A stretch of DNA of 6,197 bases from assembly GCA_029556545.1 (NCBI GenBank), contig JAKQEQ010000048.1, positions 1 to 6,197 of the forward strand, given 5' to 3'. This DNA comes from Candidatus Hydrogenedentota bacterium (GTDB lineage: Bacteria > Hydrogenedentota > Hydrogenedentia > Hydrogenedentales > JAGMZX01). The translations under genes were made by a program, and so were the position numbers. Shown here piece after piece: positions 1 through 6,197 of the stretch. The notes beneath the pieces were generated by a model. That model did not search any database, was not told the DNA's origin, and saw nothing but the letters and a program-made list of their open reading frames with translations. The first letter of the stretch is position 1. Every line of letters begins with the position of its first letter.

Positions 1-1623
1 CCACGTGCGGGGATGGTTCGGCTCGAAGGTCACGAAACGGGACGAATCCCCGACGGCGCGTTCCATGTAGATCATGAGGCGCCGGACGTTCACCCGGTCC
101 ACGGCGGACGGCTGCTGGAGCAGCGTCCGCTGCCCCCAGACGTTCACGCCGGAGTCCGGGAACACGGCGATGACGTTGACGCCTTCAGGATAGAGCACGT
201 CGCGGTCGGCGCGTTGCGTGAGATACGCCACGCCCTGGACGTTGAAAACGCGGCCCCGGTCGATGCCCGCGGGCGCAGACCATACGTAGGCTTTCTGGTC
301 GTTCCGGGCGTAGCAGCCCGCAACCGCGCCCGACGGCGGCACGAGCTTCTCATGGCCGCTGATCGGGTCCTGGATGCGCAGCCACGGCCAGTACACCGCG
401 CCGTAGGACGAGTTGAACGCCTCGTGGCTGTAGCCGCCCTGGCCGCGCCGGAAGTCCAACGCCTCTTGCGGCGTCAGGCCCATCGGCGTGTCCAGGATGC
501 AGAACACGTCCTTGCGCAGTTCGGCGTAGGTGAGAGCGGCGTTCAGGACCGCGCCCGTGGTCACGCCGGGGATGCACAGGAGGTTCAGGTCGAACACGTC
601 CTCGAAGGCGCTGAAGCCGGTATGCTGGGAATGGTCGCCAATGTAGTCCTCGTCGGCAAGGCCGGCGAGGCCGTCATCGCCGCCAGTGAGCGTGAACTGG
701 CCCACGGCGGGCCGGTGCTGTGCCGTGGCGGTCCCCGTGGTCTTGTCCTCGACCGTGATGTATTCCGAGTCGCCGTTCACGGCGAGTTCGACGTAATTCG
801 CCGCGGTCGGCGACATGGACAGATCCTTGAAGACCTCGACGATCTCGTTCCTGTGCCGGACGATGAGGTTGAACTCCGTATCTGGAGACCGCGAACCGTT
901 CTCCAGTTGCACGGCAATGCGGTCGCCCCATACGCCCTCGTCCACGGCCCGGATCGACAGCGCGTCCTGCGGGTCCAATCCGCCCGCGAGGTGAGTCACC
1001 GCGGCAGGCGTCACCACGCCGGTATCCGTCCCGGCAACCGTGACCAGCGCCGCGGCTTCCGTCTTGGCCATGACAGCGGCCACGACCTGAGCGACGGTAG
1101 AAGTCGCGTTGCCCTCGTTGTCTGTGGCGAGGTTCACGGTGATCGCCTCGCCCGTCACTTCGACCGACAACGGGGTGTCGTTGCCGAAGGCCGCAAGGGT
1201 GACGGCGATGTCGTTGCCCGCCGCGCCTGCCGTCACGGCCTGCCAGAGGATGCGGTCCGTGCCGGATGCGCCCGTCGCGAGCGATGCCTTGACGGTGTTT
1301 CGGTTCTTGAGCGTGACAGCGCTGCGCACCGCGCTGAGCGTGGTCTTGTCCAGCGGGTCGGTGTAGTGGGCGATGCGGTTCACCCAGAGCTGCGCGCCGC
1401 CGTTGTCGAAGAAAGCGCGCGCGGCGTAGGCGAGGTAGCCCGACTGGACATAGCCGCCGAAACGCCGGACGAACTGTTCCCAACTGGTCACGAGCGTCGG
1501 CTTGTTGATCGGGCCGCGTTCCGCGACGCCGAGCATGCCGCACGCGGACGTGGACAACTGTTTGACGTAGTAGCTGAAATCCGTTTCGCGGATGGTGACG
1601 CCGGGAGAAAGATAGGTGGGCAT
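1..1623 (-). CDS. Phage tail sheath protein, C-terminus cut off by window edge
   Basis: Subunit of the contractile sheath that polymerises around the tail tube and shortens at infection to drive the tube through the host envelope. My translation of the complement from the ATG at 1621-1623 is open for 541 codons to the window edge. The N-terminus has the typical sheath start (YLSPGVTIRE, residues 4-13). It is followed by AERGPINKPTLVTSWEQF (34-51) and YLAYAARAFFDNGG (63-76), a block typical of sheath proteins. A variable insertion occupies roughly residues 85-300. The subtilisin-like sheath core follows (DTPMGLTP near 378, SSYGAVYWPWL near 403). The C-terminal domain begins near RTLLQQPSAVDRVNVRRLMIY (about 495-515). 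Roughly the last 100 residues expected for the family are missing. An AAGGAG ribosome binding site (1631-1636) lies 7 nt before the ATG, inside the end of the preceding gene. Its presence makes the virion a myovirus-type particle or tail-like device. Identification is secure. Confidence 0.95.
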   Translation of the reverse strand, partial: MPTYLSPGVTIRETDFSYYVKQLSTSACGMLGVAERGPINKPTLVTSWEQFVRRFGGYVQSGYLAYAARAFFDNGGAQLWVNRIAHYTDPLDKTTLSAVRSAVTLKNRNTVKASLATGASGTDRILWQAVTAGAAGNDIAVTLAAFGNDTPLSVEVTGEAITVNLATDNEGNATSTVAQVVAAVMAKTEAAALVTVAGTDTGVVTPAAVTHLAGGLDPQDALSIRAVDEGVWGDRIAVQLENGSRSPDTEFNLIVRHRNEIVEVFKDLSMSPTAANYVELAVNGDSEYITVEDKTTGTATAQHRPAVGQFTLTGGDDGLAGLADEDYIGDHSQHTGFSAFEDVFDLNLLCIPGVTTGAVLNAALTYAELRKDVFCILDTPMGLTPQEALDFRRGQGGYSHEAFNSSYGAVYWPWLRIQDPISGHEKLVPPSGAVAGCYARNDQKAYVWSAPAGIDRGRVFNVQGVAYLTQRADRDVLYPEGVNVIAVFPDSGVNVWGQRTLLQQPSAVDRVNVRRLMIYMERAVGDSSRFVTFEPNHPRTW

Positions 1624-2512: not shown

Positions 2513-2520
2513 TCGTTCGT

Positions 2521-2524
2521 CTCC
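2521..2524 (-). promoter_or_regulatory. Ribosome binding site that decides the tail-terminator start
   Basis: GGAG on the minus strand, 8 nt before the ATG at 2512. It supports this start over the longer in-frame ATG at 2614, which has no comparable site. Its first two bases also belong to the stem at 2523-2554, so the structure could limit translation. Confidence 0.65.
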
Positions 2525-2554
2525 GGTAAACCTCGTTCGGAGGTTACTTACCGG
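2523..2554. repeat. Bulged 12-bp inverted repeat upstream of the tail-terminator gene
   Basis: CCGGTA (2523-2528) pairs with TACCGG (2549-2554), and AACCTC (2529-2534) pairs with GAGGTT (2540-2545). This leaves a 5-nt loop (2535-2539) and a 3-nt bulge (2546-2548). In the minus-strand transcript the hairpin lies directly before the tail-terminator start and takes in part of its GGAG. On the plus strand no gene precedes it and no T-run follows, so it is not an obvious terminator. It could be an RNA control element, a processing site, or a remnant at the edge of the inserted segment. Confidence 0.55.
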
Positions 2555-2748
2555 AAAAGACCATGAGATTGGATGAAGGCGTGGCCGGAGTGCGACGGCA
2601 TGATCTATACTCATGTCCTCAATTGGAGGCGTTCAGGTGTACGCAGCGCAATGGACGGGTTATGAGAAGAAGGTTCTTATGCCGATCCCTATGAGAAGCC
2701 GACATTTCATGCGGCTCAATGTAATGTGAGGCGGTGGGGGTTAACCAG

Positions 2749-4035
2749 ATGAAATCGTTCAGCAGTCCACAATCCGCAGCTCGAGATGTCCACGAACTTC
2801 TGGACTACCTCTGGGATCAACACGAGCCTCACTTCCTGTATCGAGGACAAACACGCGAGTACCCCGGTCCGCTGTTACCCTCAGCCTACCGGGGGAAGCA
2901 CGTTGGTCTATCCTGCAGTACAGGCGCGCTTCATGCGCATGCCAGATCCCTGCGCGCAGTCGGCAGGAGATTCTGTGAGGTGCGGTTGTTCAAAAATTTC
3001 GACGACATCTTCCTCGCATACTCCTGTGAGGACACCATCCGGGATCATGATGAGGTGAGCTTGCTCCACAACATCACTTATCATGACGCTATGGCAAGGA
3101 GAATAGGAACTGAGGGTTTCGAGACGGCCATTCGCAGGTCGGTACATCCCGCTCTGCTAACGCGCTTCGAGCATCGCCTGCCGCTTTGGGAACGTGTCGT
3201 CACCGCGCAGCATAAGGGACTCCTTCGACTCAATGGAGCGAATCAGTTTTTTGGCTTTCGAGTCGGTCAAACATTGGCCCAGCATTACATCGAAAGTTCG
3301 GAGTTCCTTGACGCGACTCGCTCGCCGACCATTGCGGCATTCTTTGCAAACTACGCTGCGCCCGAAGTGGTTCGACAACAACATGGTCTCCATCACGACG
3401 CCTCGACCGAGATCGGGATCATATACCGCTTCTTCGCTCCTGCCGCGAATGACACGCCACTTCAATTCGACTACTATAGCGCACCGGGTTATATCGATGC
3501 CGTCGCGGTTGCTGAAACACTTGTCACCTCGCGCCCTGACAGCCAGACCACTTGGTCGCCCGATGACTTCATCTTCCTGTACAAGATGACCGGTGGTCAT
3601 CGCGATTGGAAGTTGCTCGCACTACCCAGCGGCAGCATTCCAGACACGAGGATTGGCCGCCAGGAGGCTGCCTTCTTAGTACCCGATGAAGTCCACGACG
3701 AAAGCCGCGACCCGCACACAGGCCACCAGCATGTGCGATATCAGGCAATAGAGGACCTATCGGCGAGAGATGGCGTGAATCTCTTCTACTTCCTGCGGCG
3801 GAGGACTGGTCTTGGAGACGCGAGGGTCTCCGAAAGCTACCTCTGGCCATCCGACGAGCAGCCCGAGCAAATGTTTACTGGGTTGTTCCACAACATGGTT
3901 GATGCGGAGGACATCATCCGATCTCGCAAGATTATCCTTGGACGGGTCTTTGAGCCTGATCACTGGTATCCCGCTCGCCATGATCTGATCCGCGAGAAGG
4001 CTCCGAATCTGACTGGACGGGGGATCGCCACCTAA
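2749..4035 (+). CDS. FRG-domain protein, cargo (moron-type) gene in a phage tail operon
   Basis: A 428-residue FRG-domain protein of unknown biochemical activity. Family signatures are visible. The FRG-type motif FLYRGQ lies at residues 29-34, followed by LLPSAYRG (42-49). A helical middle leads to AQHYIESSEFLDATRSP (177-193) and TIAAFFA (194-200), the conserved QHY-x-LD-T-SP-x-A-FFA block. RQEAAFLVP begins at 304, like the R-Q-A-F segment late in these domains. The final 100 residues look like a separate family-specific tail. No signal peptide or membrane segment is seen, so it is probably cytoplasmic. I favour the ATG at 2749, preceded by GGTGGGGG at 8 nt spacing. An in-frame GTG at 2734 would add five residues. 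It runs opposite to all the virion genes, is flanked by noncoding DNA, and has less GC-rich codon use (many ATA, AGG, TTT and GAT codons), all signs of separate acquisition. A role in host defence or superinfection exclusion is inferred from this cargo layout, not from sequence. Its TAA stop lies in an attC-like box. Confidence 0.93.
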   Translation: MKSFSSPQSAARDVHELLDYLWDQHEPHFLYRGQTREYPGPLLPSAYRGKHVGLSCSTGALHAHARSLRAVGRRFCEVRLFKNFDDIFLAYSCEDTIRDHDEVSLLHNITYHDAMARRIGTEGFETAIRRSVHPALLTRFEHRLPLWERVVTAQHKGLLRLNGANQFFGFRVGQTLAQHYIESSEFLDATRSPTIAAFFANYAAPEVVRQQHGLHHDASTEIGIIYRFFAPAANDTPLQFDYYSAPGYIDAVAVAETLVTSRPDSQTTWSPDDFIFLYKMTGGHRDWKLLALPSGSIPDTRIGRQEAAFLVPDEVHDESRDPHTGHQHVRYQAIEDLSARDGVNLFYFLRRRTGLGDARVSESYLWPSDEQPEQMFTGLFHNMVDAEDIIRSRKIILGRVFEPDHWYPARHDLIREKAPNLTGRGIAT

Positions 4036-4089
4036 CAAGCGGATCAACCTGACCACGCTGCGCGTCGCAGGTTATCCGCACCATTGAGC
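4030..4089 (+). repeat. Stem-loop after the FRG gene with integron attC-like layout
   Basis: The hairpin is GCGGAT (4039-4044), a single bulged C (4045), AACCTG (4046-4051), a loop with an inner ACGC/GCGT stem (4055-4058 with 4062-4065), then CAGGTT (4068-4073) and ATCCGC (4074-4079). Outside it, ACCTAAC (4030-4036) fits the attC R'' consensus RYYYAAC and includes the FRG stop codon. Seven bases separate it from TCAACCTG (L''-like), and CAGGTTA (L'-like) is followed after 8 bases by ATTGAGC (4083-4089), which fits GTTRRRY except for the first base. The extra C before AA in L'' is the attC hallmark that gives an extrahelical base. Against attC, the central spacers GCGGA and TCCGC pair with each other, and the core G is an A. 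A plain transcript-end hairpin is the alternative; no T-run follows. Confidence 0.4.
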
Positions 4090-4091
4090 GC

Positions 4092-4110
4092 TCAGGATAG
4101 TGCGTCCTGA
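4092..4110. repeat. Short 6-bp hairpin in the convergent intergenic region
   Basis: TCAGGA (4092-4097) and TCCTGA (4105-4110) are complementary with a 7-nt loop. The element lies between the convergent 3' ends of the FRG gene and the tail-completion gene. It lacks a T-run on either strand, so termination is possible but not demonstrated. The rest of the interval up to 4170 shows nothing recognisable beyond a short open frame on the minus strand. Confidence 0.35.
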
Positions 4111-4170
4111 CGGGTGAGGCGGTTGCTTGTCCGTAGTGGGGTTCGCGTACTATGCGCATTTTCGCCATCT

Positions 4171-4665
4171 TCACCCACCGTCGAGAGCTGCGCGGATGGC
4201 TCTGCGATAGTTGTCCGAGACCTGGTCGCGATACTTTTCCATCGTGGGATGCAGGAAGGGGCGCGGCGGGATGACGATGGTTGAGCCGTTCGGCATGGTG
4301 ATGGTCGCGCCATACTCCATGATCGCGGCGATGTTGACCATGTCTTCGCCGTCCTTGTTGACCGTCCCGCGCAGGAGTCCCACGAACGCATGGTCGGCCA
4401 AAATCCGCTGGGTGATGGAATTGAGCAGGAAGCCCGTATCGATAAGGGCCTTGCCGGAACCTTTGCGTTCGATGGTGCTCTCGGCCAGCGGCGGGAACGG
4501 CACGCCGCCCGGCGCCTGCGCAACGATGCCCCGCTTGATTTCCCTGACCAGCAACAGCGCGTTCTGAATGGTGGCCTGACGGATGGCTTTGGCGAACCGC
4601 GCGCCGGGGTTGTTCTCCAGCCGCGCCTTGACTTTATCCCAGTCTCCAAACCGTCTAACCGGCAT
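4171..4665 (-). CDS. HK97 gp10 / virion-morphogenesis-like tail-completion protein
   Basis: A 164-residue protein of the broad group that includes HK97 gp10 and the Mu and P2 virion morphogenesis or tail-completion proteins, which act at the head-tail joint. The family pattern is clear. A long N-terminal amphipathic helix (about 24-50) is followed by PFPPLAESTIERKGSGKALI (56-75) and DTGFLLNSI (76-84), the conserved LxxxTxxxKGSxxxLIDTGxLxxSI block. Then come IAAIMEYGA (112-120) and IPPRPFLHP (132-140), the usual EYG and PPRPFL signatures, and a C-terminal helix. The ATG at 4665 overlaps the stop of the preceding gene by 11 nt. Only a weak GTGAAG site precedes it, consistent with translational coupling. 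Length and position are normal for the family. It is the last virion gene before the inserted FRG gene, and its 3' end faces that gene's 3' end. Family membership is confident; the exact step in assembly is inferred. Confidence 0.9.
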   Translation of the reverse strand: MPVRRFGDWDKVKARLENNPGARFAKAIRQATIQNALLLVREIKRGIVAQAPGGVPFPPLAESTIERKGSGKALIDTGFLLNSITQRILADHAFVGLLRGTVNKDGEDMVNIAAIMEYGATITMPNGSTIVIPPRPFLHPTMEKYRDQVSDNYRRAIRAALDGG

Positions 4666-5020: not shown

Positions 5021-5487
5021 AGGTGCGGGTCCTCCAATGGTTCGAGGTCGATGCCCTGCTCGTAGAGGACGGGCCGGAATTCAGGAGAAATGATGTAGCC
5101 GTCGTCGTCATGGACGCCGGGCGTCATTTGCGCCACACGCTGCCGGTACTGGAGCGTGAGCGACTCTTCCAGTTCCGCCCACTGTTTGGGCTGACCCGTC
5201 TTATTGACGCTCTTGTCGCCGCTGGAGAAAGAGAACGCATTCGCCGTCGCTGCGCGCATAATCTGGCAGGCGTTGATTTGCCCCAGGAGCAGGAGCAGTT
5301 CCCGCGCTTCGCCTTCCGGCTCCGGCGTGATCTCTCCGCCCGTCACGGCAAGCGTGATGCGCAAGTCCCGTCCAAGACGGAGCGCCCCCTTCAAGAGACA
5401 CCGCGCCAGGACCTCGTCGGCGAAGAGGGTCTTCTCCGGGTCGGCGAGGTCCTGGCGCAGCGTGGATACTAAGTCCGCCAGCGGCAT
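5008..5487 (-). CDS. Probable head-tail adaptor (gp6-like connector) protein
   Basis: A 159-residue protein, mostly helical, probably the adaptor ring bound directly under the portal. The layout fits this class. MPLADLVSTLRQDLADPEKTLFADEVLARCLLKGALRL (first 38 residues) gives two helices joined by the F-x-D-E-x-L motif common to connectors. A strand pair follows (ITLAVTGGEITPEP), then a long helix (ARELLLLLGQINACQIMRAA) and a helix of the ELEESLTLQYRQRV type. The C-terminal arm is acidic and aromatic (ISPEFRPVLYEQG, ending PHLWPY). I chose the ATG at 5487, four bases after the stop of the upstream gene, because the longer open frame to 5568 overlaps that gene and its extra residues are Arg-rich and not coding-like. 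The site before the ATG is a weak GGGGTG, so it probably relies on coupling. It overlaps the next gene by 13 nt. Family assignment is by architecture and position, not by a diagnostic motif. Confidence 0.85.
   Translation of the reverse strand: MPLADLVSTLRQDLADPEKTLFADEVLARCLLKGALRLGRDLRITLAVTGGEITPEPEGEARELLLLLGQINACQIMRAATANAFSFSSGDKSVNKTGQPKQWAELEESLTLQYRQRVAQMTPGVHDDDGYIISPEFRPVLYEQGIDLEPLEDPHLWPY
5031..5035 (-). promoter_or_regulatory. Ribosome binding site supporting a GTG start for the stopper gene
   Basis: GGAGG on the minus strand, 10 nt before the GTG at 5018-5020 and inside the coding end of the adaptor gene. It is the reason for preferring GTG over the TTG a few codons downstream, though the spacing is slightly long. 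Confidence 0.5.
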
Positions 5488-5854: not shown

Positions 5855-6197
5855 TTATCCGAGAATCCGGATCTTGACCAGAATCTCCGGGCGGGTGACG
5901 CCCTGGCCCAGTTCCATCCACACGAGCCAGCCGGTCTTGAACTGCGTCTTGACCTCGATGGACTCCGTGGTGAGCGTCTCGCGAATGGGCATCTTGCCGA
6001 CCTCGGCGTCCGGCACGAGGATGATCTCGTCCATCGCCGCCGCGGCGGTCAACAGGATGCCGCCCGTGCCGTAATTCTTGATGACGCCCTTGGCGCGCAA
6101 CTCGGCCTTCGTCTCGGGGTCGAGGTTCCACGAACGCATATCGTTGAACCGCCGCCCGCGCATGACGATGTACTTCACGGACATCTCCAGGTCCTCG
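5855..6197 (-). CDS. Probable phage major capsid protein, C-terminal end only
   Basis: Open from the right window edge for 114 codons to the TAA at 5855-5857. The gene starts outside the window, and the internal ATG at 6184 should not be taken as the start because the frame continues before it (EDLE). The visible end reads MSVKYIVMRGRRFNDMRSWN, a short basic stretch, then YGTGGILLTAAAAMDEIILV, PDAEVGKMPIRETLTTESIE and VKTQFKTGWLVWMELGQGVT. Strand-rich C-terminal ends with a ligand-like 'IL-T-AM--I--VPD' strand and a 'W-VWMELGQGV' strand are typical of major capsid proteins with the HK97 fold. The identification is strengthened by the adaptor, stopper and tail-completion genes directly downstream. 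Without the N-terminal and central domains the capsid family cannot be named, and another head protein is possible. Confidence 0.8.
   Translation of the reverse strand, partial: EDLEMSVKYIVMRGRRFNDMRSWNLDPETKAELRAKGVIKNYGTGGILLTAAAAMDEIILVPDAEVGKMPIRETLTTESIEVKTQFKTGWLVWMELGQGVTRPEILVKIRILG

Follow-up and report, generated by a model that had tools for sequence, protein, structure and literature searches.

The FRG-domain gene in the window (the entire 6197-bp contig C175 of a MAG with its nearest relatives in Candidatus Hydrogenedentota) is, in our reading, the cargo of a temperate contractile-tailed phage. Comparison with relatives gives good support for a moron: a gene that was acquired independently and placed between virion genes. 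On balance, we think that it is a prophage-borne moron at a recurrent cargo seam, where the last head-neck gene gives way to the element ahead of the tail unit, and that its product, an FRG protein with a predicted ADP-ribosyltransferase fold, stops rival phages by abortive infection. This reading is carried by computed results: the gene is inserted, relatives lack it or have something else in its place, the same slot elsewhere often has cargo of antiviral type, and the FRG protein keeps the invariant residues. The antiviral function itself is likely, judging from FRG family membership, the antiviral-type slot cargo of relatives, and a published prediction.

Gene layout of the window

The assembled part of the phage element amounts to 6.2 kb. 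For convenience, loci of relatives are designated by L and a number. The features of the window are as follows.

1–1623, minus strand: tail sheath gene (PF04984, phrog_23), truncated by the contig end
1958–2512, minus strand: virion gene at the tail-terminator position, identity by position only
2513–2557, minus strand: conserved tail-unit leader; its promoter-like core, TCCGGTAAGTAACC, occupies 2555–2542
2558–2748: non-phage DNA that flanks the passenger upstream, beyond the end (2557) of homology to L014, L015, and L016
2749–4035, plus strand: passenger, an FRG-domain gene of 428 aa with an ATG start; alternative GTG start at 2734
4036–4170: downstream flank of the passenger, with a hairpin without a T tract at about 4039–4079
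4171–4665, minus strand: neck1 (tail-completion) gene (phrog_222, E 8e-34)
5855–6184, minus strand: major head protein, C-terminal part (phrog_2522); the contig ends there

On the minus strand, the order is the end of the major head protein, three small genes, neck1, the gap, the gene at the terminator position, a small gene, and the sheath. These neighbours are packed or overlapping and form the virion block of a contractile-tailed phage. The stretch 2513–4170 is exactly the gap from the ATG of the downstream virion gene (2512, minus strand) to the stop codon of neck1 (4171), and it contains one convincing gene, at 2749–4035 on the plus strand. An earlier note on this DNA had described a lone plus-strand FRG gene among virion genes that are all on the minus strand, tightly packed, and often overlapping; the layout of the open reading frames and a match to PF08867 (E 1.1e-7) bear out this description. 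As to the flanking identities given there, the tail-completion gene stands by its match to phrog_222, and the tail terminator is a name by position only, since no family match is found for the product of 1958–2512.

The composition of the FRG gene is lower than that of every neighbour in both GC (0.56 vs 0.60–0.70 in the flanking genes) and GC3 (0.62 vs 0.69–0.92), consistent with the less GC-rich codons noted earlier. The gene-free flanks of the insert have GC contents of 0.52 (2558–2748) and 0.59 (4036–4170). The counts of sigma-70-like promoters and of terminators for the FRG gene equal chance in the window.

The junction in relatives

For the wider comparison, more distant relatives were drawn from IMG/VR and from the genomes of species, among them Desulfosarcina, Acidobacteriota, and Phycisphaerae. 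The census of the junction comprises 84 loci having both flanking genes, and its counts are of sequences, not of independent events, as the loci are not dereplicated. Nothing lies between the flanking genes in 60 of the 84 loci, where the stop codon of neck1 and the next start are −14 to 112 bp apart. A conserved co-directional gene of 148 aa fills the junction in nine loci; for L100, one of the nine, the measured gap is short because the neck1 frame reads on. Variable cargo, in about 12 distinct sets, is present in 15 loci, the window included. The FRG gene of the window is found at none of the 60 empty and 23 other loaded loci. Therefore, the empty junction is the ordinary state and the FRG gene is an addition. 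A conserved virion component was considered as an alternative identity and is rejected, as the FRG gene occurs in no relative.

The 148-aa junction protein belongs to one sublineage (L101, 10506–10952; relatives L082, L090, L093, L099, and L107). It is probably secreted and has no Pfam match.

The earlier note had read the locus as a moron and had proposed a comparison of the same operon in relatives. The comparison agrees with that reading, with the same junction empty or differently loaded. In particular, the flanks of the insert are about 85% identical in DNA to those of L014 (same genus) and L015, and the cargo between them is different. The cargo of L014 is 5.3 kb in length and encodes TPR and membrane proteins; that of L015, as of L027, is 3.5 kb in length and encodes an RmrA-like regulator, a PIN protein, and an ADP-ribosylglycohydrolase. 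The window, L014, and L015 all have open virion genes, and the flanking proteins are mostly above the DNA in identity (90% for neck1 and sheath, 96–98% for the head protein). This conservation speaks against a simple wreck, despite the damaged or fragmentary flanks of L016 and L017.

Cargo elsewhere in the slot

The cargo found at the same junction in other loci is listed below.

L037: SIR2-like protein, GC 0.44 vs 0.66
L017: TIR protein, matching PDC-S66 and ThsB
L027, L033, and L035: RmrA and PIN proteins (with the ADP-ribosylglycohydrolase too in L015 and L027)
L043: TPR-GreAB-C-PIN protein
L098, with L104 and L109 alike: C5 methyltransferase
L038: 23S-IVP protein
L094: cation efflux and CsoR-like gene, with transposase fragments
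L018 and L041: TetR-HlyD-ABC-TolC operon
L014 and L016: TPR proteins

Roughly half of the about 12 cargo sets are of antiviral type, known or predicted. The cation efflux genes, the TetR-HlyD-ABC-TolC operon, and the TPR proteins are plainly non-antiviral. It is thus well supported that the slot is a variable-cargo site of the phage that takes many unrelated systems, antiviral ones among them. The cargo is antisense to the virion genes, as in the window, in L014, L016, L027 (part), L033, L035, L037, L038, and L041; some of the cargo elsewhere is co-directional with them. The RmrA–PIN pair of L027 is about 72% identical in amino acids to that of L033 and L035, which belong to phages of distant hosts, while the terminator-like protein of L033 and L035 is only about 60% identical to that of the window. 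Therefore, cargo moves between lineages. L035, of the same phage group, has a further insertion of 4.2 kb (5774–10001) between another two neck-region genes (g5 and neck1).

The 5.4-kb TetR-HlyD-ABC-TolC cargo of L041 is flanked by a 37-bp direct repeat (10442–10478 and 15788–15824), which covers the neck1 end together with the upstream half of the promoter-like element. Insertion by a site-specific recombinase is rejected as a general rule, because long direct repeats at the cargo ends are present only in L041. An integron cassette is also rejected, as no attC pair is found by pattern and no integron-integrase match in the genome exceeds the cut-off. The stop codon of the FRG gene overlaps an attC-like half box, and a bulged hairpin comes next.

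A promoter-like element at late seams

A conserved non-coding element, consisting of CCGACA, 13 bases, and TCCGGTARGTA(A/T)CC, lies just upstream of the tail unit. Most sublineages have it, whether the junction is filled or empty; those in which neck1 directly adjoins or overlaps the following gene have no copy at this place. Across the loci studied, TCCGGTA[AG][GAT]TA has 107 copies on the late-gene strand and none on the other strand, compared with 0 to 3 in shuffled sequence, and a CCGAC box is positioned 14 bases upstream of the TCCGGTA core in 105 of 108 cases. After removal of near-identical copies, 25 are left. There are several copies per phage, typically placed immediately ahead of a late gene (the MELFATDL... 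gene, the terminator-like gene, or the MDLDTFKP... gene). Copies are located at 2542–2555 (minus strand) in the window, at 5105 and 10507 in L083, and at 268, 3623, 10511, and 19449 in L036, and at least 120 IMG/VR stretches carry the element.

The element looks like a late promoter or operator of the phage group, and we treat it as a putative one. An RNA hairpin is less likely. The pairing of TCCGGTA with a downstream partner is slightly higher than in shuffles (5.28 vs 4.68 of 7), and no Rfam family matches the element; a structured RNA leader is rejected on these two grounds.

The window, L014, and L027 retain the TCCGGTAAGTAA half of the element, with the edge of the insert directly at this half (2557/2558 in the window), and are without the CCGACA half. 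Another copy in the genome G047, before an unrelated late gene, is also without CCGACA. Therefore, the insert cannot be blamed for the missing CCGACA, and we do not claim it as the cause of the loss.

According to mechanical ORF calls, other late seams are also filled in some phages.

L028, 1723–3285, antisense: Eco57I-type methylase, at the late seam before the MELFATDL gene
L045, 1132–3144, antisense: C5 methylase and DUF4928, at the late seam before the MELFATDL gene
L031: iron-dependent repressor, at another late seam
L128 (G047 contig C118), 10241–11200, antisense: protein of 319 aa with no Pfam match, carried by the prophage that also has L015, immediately upstream of another copy of the element

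The 319-aa protein of L128 may be akin to DUF3800. Described from these mechanical calls, the phage group appears to have several late-region seams open to cargo, of which the FRG slot is one. What is new here is that a strictly strand-oriented recurring element marks the seam, and that in some phages cargo is present at further seams of this kind. A bolder proposal, which we put forward only tentatively and consider rather doubtful, is that CCGACA-N13-TCCGGTARGTA acts as a phage-specific late promoter or as a guide for cargo entry. The seams would then be docking places for swappable antiviral cargo at which virion expression stays unbroken, and the FRG gene would be one docked passenger.

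The FRG protein

The FRG protein scores 33 bits against Pfam FRG (PF08867), above the curated cut-off of 25. The match covers the second motif only (residues 175–200), since an insertion of about 100 residues separates the first two FRG motifs. The PADLOC candidate models PDC-S15 give a weak match (E 7e-6). In an alignment of 32 sequences, comprising the window protein and 31 phage-borne FRG proteins, all invariants of the family are kept: R32, G33, R48, Q178, H179, D188, A196, F199, R301, Q305, and F309. The window protein thus has the motif order of the family (YRG, QH..LD..A..FA, RIxxQ). Unlike the family, it reads IESSEFLDA for the canonical GLPTRLLDW and contains the insert between the first two motifs, and no close homologue of it is found. 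Judged by these motifs, the FRG protein is divergent but complete.

No relative of the protein is found in the 60 related genomes, phage records, and viral contigs searched, or in a sequence search of the PDB. A search of 395 genomes of the phylum of Desulfosarcina alkanivorans, run without a positive control and therefore weak evidence, also returns no relative. The best match on plasmids, a weak one, is a Rhizobium FRG protein encoded near SIR2, nucleoside deoxyribosyltransferase, and P-loop genes. Phage-borne FRG genes as such are not rare: 65 viral contigs carry one according to one motif scan, and PADLOC has candidate models for the family.

The earlier statement that FRG proteins have no settled biochemical activity has to be amended. 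FRG has been placed in the ADP-ribosyltransferase superfamily, with possible NADase activity and a role as antiviral effector proposed (Iyer, Burroughs, and Aravind; PMC9503650). The same work groups FRG with effectors of prokaryotic immune systems, ties the superfamily to conflict systems, and reports that ADP-ribosyltransferases with NADase activity are under-represented in viruses. The single-sequence fold of the window protein (pLDDT 34) is unusable and was set aside. The alignment-based model has a mean pLDDT of 57, with its confident parts mainly around the motifs, and Foldseek with this low-confidence model returns no significant match (best E 2.6). In a second-look structural alignment (VIA), 17 of the 17 rows among the matches listed are ADP-ribosyltransferases, with a best Z of 4.9, which is below the level that proves a shared fold. 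Together with the published assignment, the modelling gives weak support to an ADP-ribosyltransferase-like fold. From this we infer the predicted NAD+ chemistry of the FRG protein, which is a candidate activity only.

Function of the FRG gene

In the mechanism that we propose, the prophage would be maintained in its host with the virion genes silent, and the FRG gene would be transcribed against these silent genes, such that the FRG protein is made in the lysogen. Infection of the lysogen by a rival phage would activate the protein. The activated enzyme may consume NAD+ or transfer ADP-ribose to a target, and the growth of the rival would be blocked at the cost of the cell.

A passenger at this seam could also aid the lysogen otherwise, through stress response, toxin-like addiction, or competition with other bacteria. 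The cation efflux and CsoR-like gene of L094 and the TetR-HlyD-ABC-TolC operon of L041 lie in the same slot, and the P2 hotspots carry non-defence genes too (PMC9122126), consistent with such a benefit. However, the conflict-system ties of the FRG superfamily (PMC9503650) and the antiviral type of about half of the other cargo sets point to defence, and no antitoxin partner gene adjoins the FRG gene in the window. We consider a benefit of another kind possible but not probable. An insert that is mere debris is less probable still. In a decaying prophage, virion genes are dispensable and any DNA may land, and both the fragmentary flanks of L016 and L017 and the fact that the element is known over 6.2 kb only in the genome of the window are compatible with decay. 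But the window, L014, and L015 have open virion genes, with proteins mostly more conserved than the DNA, the inserts always land at the same seam, and the FRG protein has lost none of the family invariants, which makes neutral debris unlikely.

The protein might also serve the phage during its own growth, as a counter-defence or infection-stage effector that ADP-ribosylates host targets. Phages do modify host proteins with ADP-ribosyltransferase effectors (reviewed in PMC9503650), and placement among late genes would permit late expression, given an antisense promoter. Nevertheless, the FRG gene is antisense to the late unit and absent from relatives, and FRG is placed with prokaryotic immune effectors (PMC9503650), which makes an infection-stage role very improbable. 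An antiviral moron that acts by abortive infection is the explanation that we prefer.

This explanation would have practical consequences. Cargo of a hotspot can be suspected to be antiviral ahead of known biochemistry. The seam, defined by two core genes and a short repeated element, offers a route to mine uncultured phages of Desulfobacterota, Hydrogenedentota, Acidobacteriota, and other hosts for new antiviral genes. In addition, a divergent phage-borne FRG protein joins the set, and the predicted NAD+ chemistry of the family then becomes directly testable.

Comparison with known systems

Morons are known in lambdoid and P2 phages, and fun/Z of P2 lies among tail genes. The FRG gene resembles these morons in being a single gene of foreign composition between virion genes that is absent in relatives. 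It differs from them in that its promoter-like and terminator-like counts are at chance and that the hairpin 3′ of the gene has no T tract.

The defence hotspots of P2-like phages and P4-like satellites (PMC9122126) are the closest precedent. They likewise occupy a fixed site, with cargo of similar size (about 3 kb), and hold many unrelated small systems, several of them antiviral, TIR included, in addition to non-defence cargo. The nearest tested case is a TIR-containing cargo of a P2-like hotspot, by which the lysogen is protected (Rousset et al. 2022, PMC9122126). The P2 site is close to cos, with the replication gene A on one side and the portal gene Q on the other, whereas the slot of the window is located inside the virion block, between neck and tail. 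Moreover, the slot belongs to another phage lineage and, unlike the P2 and P4 hotspots, is marked by a recurring promoter-like element. The site is probably a variant of the already known phage defence hotspots, in a little-known group of tailed phages.
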